Part shown: piece after piece, positions 7,201 to 40,900 of the stretch | Numbering within the stretch: the stretch's first letter is position 1 | Layout: the number at the start of each line of letters is the position of its first letter | DNA from: Dirofilaria immitis | Taxonomy: Eukaryota > Nematoda > Chromadorea > Rhabditida > Onchocercidae | NCBI GenBank assembly: GCA_024305405.1 | Contig: JAKNDB010000075.1 | Coordinates: 1,178,001 to 1,242,000 of the forward strand | Length of the DNA stretch: 64,000 nucleotides | Direction: 5' to 3' | Made by a program: the position numbers and the translations under genes | Notes under the pieces: model-generated | What the model was told of the DNA's origin: nothing | What the model saw: the letters and a program-made list of their open reading frames with translations, nothing else | The model's database searches: none

Positions 7201-9606
7201 AAAATTTGAAAAAATTTGTCGAAGATGTTATTGGTGATAGATTAGAACCGTATATGAAGAGCGAAGAAGCACCTGAAGATCAGGGTGATGTTAAGGTCTG
7301 TCTCCGTAATTTACTAAAATTTCCAAATTTTTGAAAGTTTATTGGAAACTATGTCATGAATAACATCAGGATTTTCATTTTTCAGCAGTAAAGTAAATGT
7401 TAAGACGCATTTTTTTGTAACTTGAACTCATATTCGTTTTTTTAATATGATGAAGATTATTCGAATTCTCTTTAATTTCGCAGTAGAGCCGATTTTTTGT
7501 TAAAAATTTTTTTCTGTTCTGATTGTTTTCGCCTTATTTTTACCCATGCATAGCTGTCAGGACTTCATTGCAAATGGGAGTTATTAGAACAAGGGTCGGT
7601 CTCTATCATAGTATCGGAACTTCATTCAATCGCAAATATTCGTCTATATTAACTGAACTTGAAGTTTCTCTCTTATTTCTAATATTTTTGTTTTTTTTTC
7701 GAAAATGGTTAGATCTCAAAAATTCGAAAAGCATAAATAGATGTGAATTGTTTGAAAAATTGAAAATTCTTTTGCCATTCATTGCTTGTTAATATTTGAA
7801 AGCTAGTCTGTCTTCAGATGTAAATCAGTTTTTTTATTAATTCTTTATTAATTGGCATTTTTTATTCACTTTTCATCTGCGAAATTGTCTCAGACAGTCG
7901 AAATTAGAAAATCAATATCTGAAGAACTGGTCGGAAAATATCGTTTCCGATCTGGATAATCTCGGATATTTCAGGTCGTTGTTGCTAAGACATTCCAAGA
8001 AATGATCATGAATGTGGAAAAGGATGTTTTAATCGAATTTTATGCTCCATGGTGTGGCCACTGCAAAGCACTCGCACCGAAATATGATGAATTAGGCCAG
8101 AAATTATCCGGTGAACCAGGTGTTGTTATTGCAAAAATGGACGCAACAGCGAATGATGTCCCACCACCATTCCAAGTACAAGGGTAAGCTTTAATTATTT
8201 AATTATCATAATATGCTTTTTATTGGTTTATTTGAAAATTTATGAGAATATCAAATATGATATATTCCATATATTTAATGGTAATTGTATAGACAATATA
8301 TGACCGAATCTCATCCCAACTGAAGTTCATTTTTTTCCAGTCGTTCAACAGTCTTCCTAGTCTTATTTATTTGAGTCATCGGTCATTTAAAGCGTCTAAT
8401 CATAGCTAGCCAAGGAACGAAATACCTTCTCGTTATGTTTAAGATTGCTTGTAGTTTTGTTTACTACGTTCCAACATAATCAGTAGTATTTCTCGATATT
8501 TTAATCAAGTAAATTTTGTCATGAAATCATAATTATCCCTTCATTCTTTGCACTGCAAATATAGGAATCTACAAATATTTACAATATCATTCATTGAAAG
8601 AAAATTGATTGACTAATAATGACTAAGGAATACAAAGTCAATTCTCGTTCCTGCTTTGAAAAACGTCTCTTCTTGAATTCAAAGCTTCAGTTCTTTTGCG
8701 TTTAATTAAATAACCTTTATTTTTTGTCTAGTGATACGAAATTAGTAGAATGATTGGCAATTCTTATGCTTCTTCAATTGCGTTCTGCAAATATTGAAAT
8801 TTGAAGTTATAAGAATAAATTTGGAACTGAAGCTGTTTTCCATCGCGTTATTGTTGACTCGTGCTTATCAAGTATTTCTTGTAACAAAAGTTGGCATGAC
8901 TTTTATTTTCATTAATTTCTGGTTAGGAGTGTTCTTTTTGCACAAAATTCGTTCTTTAATATTTTTGCTCATCAGTTTGAAAAATTTCACATGGGTTTAT
9001 AGTTTTTTCCGCAAAAATTCTTGAATTCCTTATTTTCTCATATTCAAAGCAACTGCGTATATGCATCCAAAGTCTACGGTACTGGAGGTACCAACCTTTT
9101 ACTTAGCTTTTTGTTCCTCTCTGATTTTTGTTGGGCAATTATATGTTATGAATGTTCATCTTTGTACTTATATATAATTAGCTGCAGTCGACAACTCTTT
9201 GAGACTCTGATTACTGTGGTAAAGTGATTGACATTTATCACTTCGCTTACCAACTGATTTCTCTCTGGATTTCCTTTTCTCTTCTGATGACAGTTAATTT
9301 GGTTGTGGGCTATAATGGTGATAATGATGAAATGACTTATACAGGTATATAACGATAGCTAAGTTTTGCTTTGTTGAAACTTTAGTTGGAACGACTGGAA
9401 CTTTCTTTTTCTTTGCTTTGATTTTTATGTTCTCATTTCAGATTTCCAACTCTTTACTGGGTACCGAAGAATAAAAAGACAAACCAGAGCCATACTCTGG
9501 TGGTCGAGAAGTGGATGATTTTATTAAATACATCGCGAAGCATGCAACGGAAGAACTGAAGGGATACAAGAGAGATGGAAAACCGAAGAAGAAGGAAGAA
9601 TTGTAA
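4300..9606 (+). CDS. pdi-3: Protein disulfide isomerase, ERp57/PDIA3 type (11 exons, three frame breaks)
   Basis: ER thiol oxidoreductase that forms and rearranges disulfides in secretory proteins. Exons: 4300-4463, 4678-4764, 5157-5382, 5494-5617, 5708-5821, 6143-6246, 6366-6460, 6774-6870, 7154-7295, 7975-8183, 9442-9606. The product would be about 509 residues. It has a hydrophobic signal peptide (about 1-24), a first thioredoxin domain with CGHC at 56-59, two middle domains without active cysteines ([22 protein letters not shown]), a second thioredoxin domain with CGHC at 412-415 and [12 protein letters not shown], and a basic tail ending KEEL, a KDEL-type ER retrieval signal. The match along its length is to C. 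elegans PDI-3 (from memory). Three exons lack one A each, in the runs at 4691-4694, 6837-6841 and 9473-9477. Adding one base at each makes all 11 exons phase-compatible (1530 nt), which argues for sequencing error over a pseudogene. The intron at 8184-9441 is unusually long for this gene. Confidence 0.94.
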
Positions 9607-13329: not shown

Positions 13330-29349
<16,020 letters not shown>

Positions 29350-31780: not shown

Positions 31781-34700
31781 ATGACGGATTCTGGTAGTGA
31801 TGAGGAGGTTCAAAATAAAATAAATTTAAAAGTGAAAACTACTACGGAAGGTTACGATATTGCGGTGCCGGAAAAAGCTACCGTTTTAAAGGTATTTATA
31901 ATATTTGATCCCTTTTATTTGTAATATTTTGCATGTGGAATTTTTTTACCATACATTTTCATCATTGATTATGGTAGAACTATCCTCATAATATGAGTCT
32001 CATATTCTTCTAATCGAATATACCTTGATATTCCTATCCATGCATGTTATATTCCAATTTGTCGAAATATATCAGAATTATATTTCACAGATATAATTGA
32101 TTATTATAACTAAATATTTTATGAAATCTAGAACACTCATCCCGAAAATCTCCTGTCAAGATTGCTTACTTGTTACTTCGAAATATTTAGAAATACTATA
32201 GACTATTCAGTCTGCTTATTTTTTATTGCTCTTAGTTTTTATATGTTTTCGCTGTCTTCGTTTAATTTTAAGTGCTATCACGGTATCAAATGAAACAGTA
32301 GTTATTAAAGCATGTTTATTAAAGCATGTTTCATCATCATTATTTTTACTGTAAAGATATAATGAGATTCCAGGTTAAGGCAGTATTATCAGCGAAAATT
32401 AATCAACCACCTGAAAAGCTGTGTCTTATCTTTTCCGGAAAAATTTTGAAAGATCACGAAACACTTACTAAACTTTGTAAGTTAAATTTTATTAACTGTA
32501 TTTTGACATCTTCCGACACTTTTTCGAAAGAAAACTCCGTTGTAAGCAGAAGTTGATATCGGTAATTTTATTAGCTTTTATAATTCCGGTATTACGTTTT
32601 TAATTACTACGATCCTTTTCCCTCTTATAGTGAACAAAATGTTGGATGTTTATAAAAGCGAATGAAATTTGTAGTTTGATTTGAAGAAGATATTATCTTT
32701 AACGACATCTTTTACCCTTTTGTCATCTTATATTGAATCGATTAATTTCAGCTATTAAAGATGGTATGGCCATTCATCTTGTTATACGGAATTCGCAGCG
32801 GGTAAGAAATTCCATTTAATTTTTTTCTCGAATAACTTTGTTTCCAATTTATTGTTTTCAAATAATTTTTTTCTAATTATGGTTCTTATTGTTGTTATTA
32901 TTAAATTATTGCAGCCTCCCGCAACTGGCACTGCTTCTGGAACCGGATCAACTCCAGTAATTTTTCTTCCATTGTCTCAGATTTTAAACAGAATATTTGC
33001 ATTTTTTTAATACTGTTTTTATGTATTGTTTGCTTTTCAGCACATTATTCTCTCTCTCTCCATCTTTCCTTAATATTTTTATTAAAACAGACTGCAACAA
33101 TGGGAGGAAATCCCATGGGTGGTGCATTAGGAATGGCACAGCATATGATGCAGAATCCAGAAGCAATACGTGAGATGACGAATAGTCCAATAGTTCAATC
33201 ATTATTGAATAATCCGGACATAATACGGTCATTGATTGCTGATAATCCACAAATTCAGCAAGTTATTGAGGTAATTTTTGTTTCTTTCCTGTCTTTATTA
33301 CAAAAATAAAGGAGTAACAAGAAACAAAAGACAAATTTTTCAGCTTTATATTATAGTTCTACATCAAAAAAATTATTATTTTGTTGGACAATTTTTAACT
33401 GATAGATTAATATCCAAGTATTCATTTAAGTCAAATCCCGAGCTTGGTCATTTGTTGAATGATCCGGAAGTTATTCGACAGACTATCGAGATGGTAAGAA
33501 ATCCGAGTATGTTCCAGGAATTAATGCGTAGTCGTGACCAGGCAATACGGAATCTTCAGGTTTGGATTAAAATTGCTGTTTTATTTATATCCAATTTGTA
33601 ACTAATATTAAAATCTGTAATAATATAAACAGTTTAGAAAGTTGAGTAAATTTCAGGGCATTCCGGGCGGACAAGCAGCATTGCAGCGTTTATATCAAGA
33701 TGTACAAGAACCACTGTTAAACAGTGCAACAAGTACTTTTGCTAACAATCCCTTTGCATCTTTAGTAGATAATTCCAATAGTATGGGTAAGATTTTTTGC
33801 ATTTTGTTTTTGCTTTTCATAAGCCTATCCATTAACTCCTAAGTTGTTCTTACTTTTTATTGCGATATCCTTGTTTTTTTTTTTCAAGTTAGGATCATAT
33901 GTTAAGTAATCAGTAGTTCGCTTCTAAGATATTTTTAAGTTAAATCACCGTTTTCATAGTTTAGCATCACGTAGTCAACGTGCTGGTGTTGAAAATGCCG
34001 AAGCACTGCCAAATCCTTGGGGCAATACTACCAATACATCTGGTTCCGCTGCTACTAATATAGGCACTGGCAGTGGTACGCCATCTCAATCTTCGGCAAA
34101 TATAATAGCTGGTAAGTTGATTTTATACAGTAATTATCTCATCTTGATTGATTTTGCTAATATTAGAGATCGATCATTCCTATAATTGTAAAATATATCT
34201 CCAGCATTGACTAATCTTTAATAAACTAGTGCTAAAATACACGGTCATTACTGTCATTTTTCCTTCCTAACTCTTGTATCTGTTTTATTTTGCTGTCTGC
34301 ATAAGAATTGTAAAACTTGGAGAGTTTAACTTCAGTTTTGACTGCTGAATAGCCGAAACAGATGGAAATATTTTTTATCTCATTTCATTTTTATTCATCT
34401 CCATCTATTTATTATTGTTTGTTTGAAAGGGAAAAAAAAGGATATACTTAGAATCGAATTAGAAATTAAACTGTATGGAAAAAGTGAAATGTATAATCCG
34501 TCACTCTTGACTACAAAAAATGTTCTTCATAATAATTTCTTGACGTTACAGAACTCGCTAATACTCTTGGTTTGTCGGAAAATCCACCAATGTTGTCTGA
34601 TCCAAATACTTATGCTCGATTGTTCAACAGCGAGGCGTTTACAAATACTATGAATATGATTCGGCAAAATCCATCTATATTATCACAGGTTTACATTTTC

Positions 34701-39227: not shown

Positions 39228-39230
39228 TTA

Positions 39231-39744
39231 TTTTACAAAATTCTCTTCTGATCCCACAATGCCTTCAGCTAGTATTATGGAAGCATCATTACCTGAAACT
39301 ATTACGATTCCTTCGAGCAACTCTTTTACTGTAACAAACTGACCTTCTCTTAAAAACATAGAAGAGCCTTTTCTTTTCCATGCCTTTTTACTTACTTGAA
39401 ATTTATCTTCCATGTTTATTACCCCGGCTTTTAAATAGGCAAAACAAAAGCTATATATAAAGTCATTAATTTGCTCATTGAAGATGGCGCTATTTTTCAT
39501 CAGAATTATGCTCAAAAACGATTGAGTCTAAGGCTAAGTCCAAAATCAATGCTCTGGTTTTTATGATGACATTTTCTGTATCATCATCTTCTAGCCTGAT
39601 TAAAAATTCTAAAAAAGGTATGGTTATTTTGCTTTTACCTATGTTCACACTGAATTGAATATAAGCAACTGAGACAAGTACAACTATTACTAACCAAATC
39701 AATAAGCCTTCTAGAAACTTTTCATTGTTATTTTTAACTAGACA
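39231..39744 (-). pseudogene. dacF: Wolbachia-like D-alanyl-D-alanine carboxypeptidase fragment (peptidase S11), nuclear insert
   Basis: In bacteria this periplasmic enzyme trims peptidoglycan stem peptides. On the minus strand about 110 residues match the N-terminal part of the S11 family: TRALILDLALDSIVFEHNSDEK (about 39493-39558), the active-site tetrad SMSK just after it, AYLKAGVINMEDKFQVSKKAW, GSSMFLREGQFVTVKELLEG, the SGN motif within VSGNDASI (about 39288-39296), and LAEGIVGSEENFVK. Similarity stops sharply at 39231, so the KTG motif and the C-terminal domain are missing. Two one-base losses in runs split the frame, near 39492 and near 39445. Upstream, the frame stays open to a TGA at 39745-39747 and codes for a hydrophobic segment I do not recognise. 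No introns, host promoter or neighbouring bacterial genes are seen. The bacterial family is clear; Wolbachia as donor is inferred from the filarial-type host and the AT-rich alpha-proteobacterial look. Confidence 0.85.
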
Positions 39745-40649
39745 TCAATTAAGCTTATCAGACTTTGTTTTATTATACTATTAGCAATGAAATGAATCTT
39801 GCCATCATTTATTTTCTATGGAGCATTTATTTCAAGTATTTTTGCTAACTTTGATTATTTATAATTTCTTTTTCCATCATACAATCAATCTAATCAAATG
39901 ATTGATAATTTAAATTGATTTGATTAGTTAAAAATTTCTTATCCTTTTATTTTCTTAACTTATTCATATTCTATTTTTCTTTTATTCAAATTAATCAATA
40001 TTTTTGCTTATGCATTTATTTCATTAGTATAATTGTTGTTTTTTTTTTTGCTTGATTATTTACTTATTTATTAACATTTTATCTTGTTTGTTAAGCAATT
40101 AATATCATCTGCATATTTTATTAGCTTAGTTATGTAAAATTTTATATGTAAAATTTTGTTATTCTTTTATTTATTCGTTTGTTTGTTTGTTTTCTCGAGA
40201 ATGAAACTTTGATATGATTCATAGATATATTTTTCTTTATTTTTTTATTTTTATCAATTTTAATTTTAAATGTTCAGTTATTCATTCATTTTCATATGTT
40301 ATTTGTTTATTTGTTTATTTTTTTTCAAATAGCATTTTTATAATTGTATTATTTTGATAGTAAAATTTAATTTTAATTATTCCTTAAATTTGTTTATTAA
40401 AATTTTTTGAATTTTGAAAGATTGAAGTAATAAAAATCAGTTATTTAATGAAAATGCAAAAATATGTTAATTTGAAATTTTTAAATTCAATTTTATTTCC
40501 CATTAATTCAATTTAAAATTTTACTAATTGCTATCTTGATGACTTTTAATTATATGTTATTATATTATATTTTGACATACGATAAGTAGCATATTTTATA
40601 ACAAGTAAATAATCTTGCATATCATGATAATGTTTCCTCCGTATCTTTT

Positions 40650-40900
40650 CGAACTTTTAAATCCGACTGATGATGATTAAATCGTTAAAAGTCGGTAGAA
40701 AGATTTTGAAACCGATTAATGATGAAATTGTTACAACTGGATAGAAATATTTTTGAATCCGATTGACGATTGAAATCGTTAGAAATCGATGGAAATATTT
40801 TTAAATCTGATCAATGATGAAATCACTAAAAGTTGGTAGAAAGATTTTTAAAATCGATTCATAATAAAATCATTAAGAATGGATAGAAAAATTTTGTCGT
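40650..40900. repeat. Degenerate tandem repeat of about 50 bp, five copies
   Basis: The pattern TTTTAAATCCGATTGATGAT followed by GAAATCGTTA and a GGTAGAAA-like block recurs about five times, each copy differing at several bases. No coding signal is seen. Confidence 0.65.

Follow-up and report, generated by a model that had tools for sequence, protein, structure and literature searches.

A carboxypeptidase fragment in Dirofilaria immitis DNA as part of a probable composite, dead Wolbachia transfer

Within a stretch of 64,000 nucleotides from the heartworm Dirofilaria immitis (contig JAKNDB010000075.1, positions 1,178,001 to 1,242,000; hereafter the window), an initial annotation had described positions 39231-39744 as a fragment of a bacterial S11 carboxypeptidase, most simply explained as an insert from the endosymbiont Wolbachia. 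This raises the question of what this bacterial DNA consists of, where it came from, and whether it still encodes anything.

Two adjoining pieces of Wolbachia DNA

Comparison with the genome of the Wolbachia of D. immitis FR3 (wDi) revealed an insert of 585 bases in total (window positions 39233-39817), made up of two wDi-matching pieces that adjoin end to end. The first piece (39233-39553, minus strand) matches wDi 423273-423589 at the DNA level (94.4% identity over 322 columns, E=1e-139) and is a fragment of an S11 D-Ala-D-Ala carboxypeptidase gene (dac/PBP5-like, Pfam PF00768) that lacks both ends and carries two frame breaks, while its wDi parent is an intact 370-aa gene with S11 and PBP5_C domains. 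The second piece (39546-39817, minus strand) matches wDi 117797-118072 (95.7% identity over 276 columns, E=1e-120) and contains the end of tilS (ca. 39738-39812) and the start of ftsH (ca. 39546-39725). Its wDi parents are a 447-aa PP-loop ORF, identified by Pfam as ATP_bind_3 and which we take to be tilS, and a 609-aa ftsH ORF (AAA and M41 domains); with these ORFs as tblastn queries, matches were obtained at 39741-39812 and 39547-39666, respectively. The S11 assignment of the initial annotation thus holds for 39233-39553, where both Pfam and the wDi DNA match support it, but the remainder (ca. 39554-39744) is ftsH start and tilS end, and the wDi match runs past 39744 to 39817. In other words, the insert combines two Wolbachia pieces that are unrelated to each other and is not one gene.

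At the junction (39546-39553) the two matches overlap by 8 bp, and three letters (TCA) are common to both parents on one side, agreement beyond them being patchy. Relative to wDi the two pieces are oriented alike, and their parent places in that genome lie ca. 305 kb apart by the shorter way round. The Wolbachia of Onchocerca ochengi (wOo) carries both parent places as well (88 and 89% identity, ca. 38 kb apart), as does that of Dipetalonema caudispina (wDcau; 84 and 88% identity, ca. 220 kb apart). It should be noted that 112,000 of the 920,000 wDi bases are N, so that any additional insert piece from there would be missed.

The insert sits within a 1.48-Mb contig (C13), with host junctions as given by the assembly, and the window holds animal exons such as a ubiquilin-like open frame at 32905-33309. 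By the assembly, the insert therefore lies in host chromosomal DNA. Searching the host genome (86,694,620 bases in 65 contigs) with the insert segment returned only the segment itself and no second copy, a search for the S11 family found no place besides the insert, although two DNA matches of ca. 72% that look older overlap the dac gene, and the insert flanks gave just partial, short or low-identity matches elsewhere.

Against unmasked wDi DNA, the window contained no other clear Wolbachia piece, the only further match being a weak one of 61 bp at 19350-19410 (79%, E=6e-4) that was absent from the listed matches of one wDi-tile genome search. A stretch at 7987-8181 (plus strand) that encodes a thioredoxin domain has a protein match to wDi, this domain being widely shared, and an open frame at 22704-23333 has CHD1-like relatives, with its best match in the nematode Gongylonema pulchrum (57%). 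Two tandem repeats were also observed, one near the insert (40655-40895; 47-bp unit, about five diverged copies) and one at 667-1192 (24-bp unit, ca. 22 copies, 95% matches). Neither Rfam families (at gathering scores) nor tRNAs were detected in the window.

Coding state, origin and divergence

The portion of the dac fragment with the SGN motif is contained in a 99-aa open frame (39228-39527, minus strand) that has ATG codons, starts out of frame with the front of the gene and stops at the break; Pfam Peptidase_S11 covers its residues 32-99 (E=1e-17) and the motif reads IVSGNDAS. The SxxK motif is present as SMSK in the alignment to the wDi gene, located between the two frame breaks. Both motifs lie on the minus strand, as the initial annotation had placed them, but in different frames. 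It had also proposed a cut before the KTG motif, which our data confirm: similarity to wDi ends at 39233 while the wDi gene runs on to GLKTGY, leaving KTG absent from the fragment. SxxK, SGN and KTG, which a functional S11 enzyme would hold in one open frame, are accordingly not found together in one, and the AAA and M41 domains of a functional FtsH lie further on in a wDi gene of which only the first part is present. Finally, an 84-aa open frame across the junction (39490-39744, minus strand), in which ftsH letters run into dac letters, has no methionine codon and is an in-frame fusion by chance, not a gene.

A scan of GTDB genomes with the 99-aa frame yielded ten loci, nine labelled as Wolbachia and one from a Rickettsiales metagenome-assembled genome (MAG). 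The best of these was wDi, no best match fell outside Rickettsiales, and no Wolbachia of D. repens was among the loci found. Nine of the ten loci were taken into a maximum likelihood tree of the dac piece (L010 was omitted from tree and alignment, its match being in two pieces), in which the nuclear fragment grouped with wDi with support of 96/95; two of the seven inner branches were well supported, and this grouping is the sole reading we take from the tree. For the ftsH/tilS piece, wDi was the best match among the three Wolbachia genomes searched. Among the loci found, wDi is the nearest relative, and the Wolbachia origin proposed by the initial annotation is upheld, although it had missed that the pieces are two and unrelated.

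When differences were assigned to branches with wOo as outgroup (575 sites), 15 substitutions fell on the nuclear branch and 4 on that of wDi, with 2 three-state sites. The nuclear changes were distributed over the two pieces as 9 in 313 and 6 in 262 sites, which suggests that both are of similar age. Twelve nuclear changes could be scored by codon (9 in dac and 3 in ftsH, the remaining ones lying outside these coding parts), and 10 of these altered the amino acid, with a proportion of ca. 0.76-0.77 expected without selection. By codon position, the dac changes were distributed 3/4/2, while the comparison of live wDi with wOo gave 4/2/22 (third position in 22 of 28). This pattern is consistent with a piece that has been non-functional ever since its arrival, the test being weak with 12 coding changes only. 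Judging from the missing ends, the broken frame, the fusion frame lacking an ATG and changes that fit no selection, the insert looks dead.

The differences from wDi nevertheless crowd at the junction-side end of the dac piece (ca. 39481-39550), 8 of the 12 falling within a stretch of 70 columns out of 319 (p=0.0009 by Fisher's test, for a 70-column cut that was set after viewing the data). In the same 70 columns, live wDi and wOo differ at 8 positions, with 20 differences elsewhere, indicating that the region is mildly more variable. The crowding does not fit plain drift, and we speculate that mutation at the repair join might have caused it.

The insert nests within Wolbachia, lies in host chromosomal DNA by the assembly, and has diverged in a manner that the few coding changes weakly indicate to be free of constraint. 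We are therefore highly confident that it is a composite, dead nuclear Wolbachia transfer (NUWT). Its source would be a Wolbachia closely related to wDi, from whose genome two short pieces would have been ligated together and taken up into an AT-rich chromosome stretch. Mechanistically, loose Wolbachia fragments may have been end-joined at a double-strand break with the help of short microhomology, such microhomology being weak at the inner junction, after which the insert would have drifted without function.

Both pieces probably arrived in one event. Their common orientation relative to wDi would also be accounted for if each had been inserted separately at this site, or if a single long insertion had subsequently been shortened by a large deletion, but given the order of the pieces, and with the wDi record taken as circular, the latter would need a deletion of ca. 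614 kb. The like divergence of both pieces moreover fits one event, and other abutting pairs in the genome include opposite orientations, making such a stepwise history unlikely. A second alternative is that live Wolbachia reads were joined into a nematode contig during assembly, symbiont and worm being sequenced together in such projects (PMC3849323). However, the fragment differs from wDi by indels as well as substitutions, most of the latter on its own branch, the insert brings together sequences that are widely separated in wDi, and similar diverged matches occur over many contigs. Because the insert has changes of its own, we consider such a misassembly very unlikely. A functional gene acquired from Wolbachia, be it a domesticated carboxypeptidase or a new fusion protein, could draw on the junction-spanning 84-aa frame and on the ATG codons and SGN part of the 99-aa frame, but was rejected as barely conceivable given the broken frames with SxxK and SGN apart, the fusion frame without ATG, the missing KTG part and no sign of selection in the 12 coding changes.

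Composite junctions elsewhere in the genome

To place this composite transfer in its genomic context, the host genome was searched with seven 20-kb wDi tiles, one of which was all N (0 matches, counting neither way) and one 60% N; the unmasked wDi effectively searched amounted to 108 kb in six tiles. These six tiles gave at least 183 matches in the host genome, the window's two included, with diverged matches dispersed over many contigs. Among the matches listed, 96 had at least 90% identity, median identity was 91% and median length 159 bp; some other matches in the genome were 98-100% identical to wDi.

Match pairs from different tiles that lay within 23 bp of each other or overlapped by at most 10 bp numbered four, including the window pair. 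The two tiles of the window pair had been deliberately chosen. By position among the matches listed, the other three pairs form putative junctions between non-neighbouring wDi tiles, at C26:1612121-1612487, C26:2093168-2093571 and C63:2402670-2403114. Under even random placement, a mean of 0.095 pairs within 100 bp was obtained, and three or more pairs occurred in 0.04% of 5000 simulations; even placement underestimates regional clustering, a weakness that extends to the low chance figure. Same-tile neighbours numbered six, three of them in opposite orientation.

The share of composites was estimated by taking the 6 of 181 matches (window pair excluded) with an other-tile neighbour within 23 bp, and dividing by ca. 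0.11, the share of unmasked wDi in which a partner could have been seen. This yielded about a third, with a range of ca. 6 to 90% on three pairs, and part of the low-identity matches counted may be host genes. We tentatively propose, as a possibility somewhat short of even, that many NUWTs in this genome, on the order of a third perhaps, arose by ligation of distant Wolbachia pieces, such that a pool of short Wolbachia fragments would enter the germline nucleus, several being captured per break and the joins possibly being mutated.

A longer collinear pair of matches at C21:1019701-1021994, 68-72% identical to wDi and overlapping the carboxypeptidase gene, looks older or derived from another supergroup. 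One 122-bp wDi stretch was found at four places with 91-92% identity (C54:1222-1343, C41:1203-1324, C41:14206-14327 and C53:845917-846037), of which two lie no more than 1.4 kb from a contig start; it may be a NUWT that was amplified, or else a conserved element. At C8:812555-812835 and C21:2664120-2664317, matches that stem from a single wDi place lie next to each other in opposite orientation, resembling fold-back joins.

Relation to known transfers

In D. immitis, 483 NUWT regions have been reported, 85% of them from supergroup C (Vancaester et al. 2025, PMC12693587). As described there, the NUWTs of D. immitis and other filariae are, like the present insert, short and decayed, and they are numerous and in D. 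immitis mostly of supergroup C. In that study, matches up to 2.5 kb apart are grouped into regions, and the parts of it consulted do not discuss joins of distant Wolbachia pieces. Joined NUWT pieces are on record for Brugia (PMC3849323), where two Wolbachia pieces from different places adjoin as they do here; in that system, transcription of a nuwt was seen as well. Complex numts and mosaic organelle insertions (PMC6215612) are likewise described as multi-piece with marks of end joining, their donors being organelles and not Wolbachia. Titles and the beginnings of abstracts in a literature search on joined NUWT pieces yielded nothing for Dirofilaria.

Since hundreds of NUWTs as well as Brugia and organelle composites are known, the insert is an ordinary composite NUWT, ordinary in kind. 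A hint of something less ordinary comes from the three additional junctions between wDi pieces that lie far apart, given that even placement predicts a fraction of one. By itself, the insert is a further relic of a symbiosis already known, and it carries a caution, as a chance in-frame fusion gave two unrelated bacterial scraps the appearance of a single protein. Should composites turn out to be common, they would reveal the way in which the filarial germline captures symbiont DNA.
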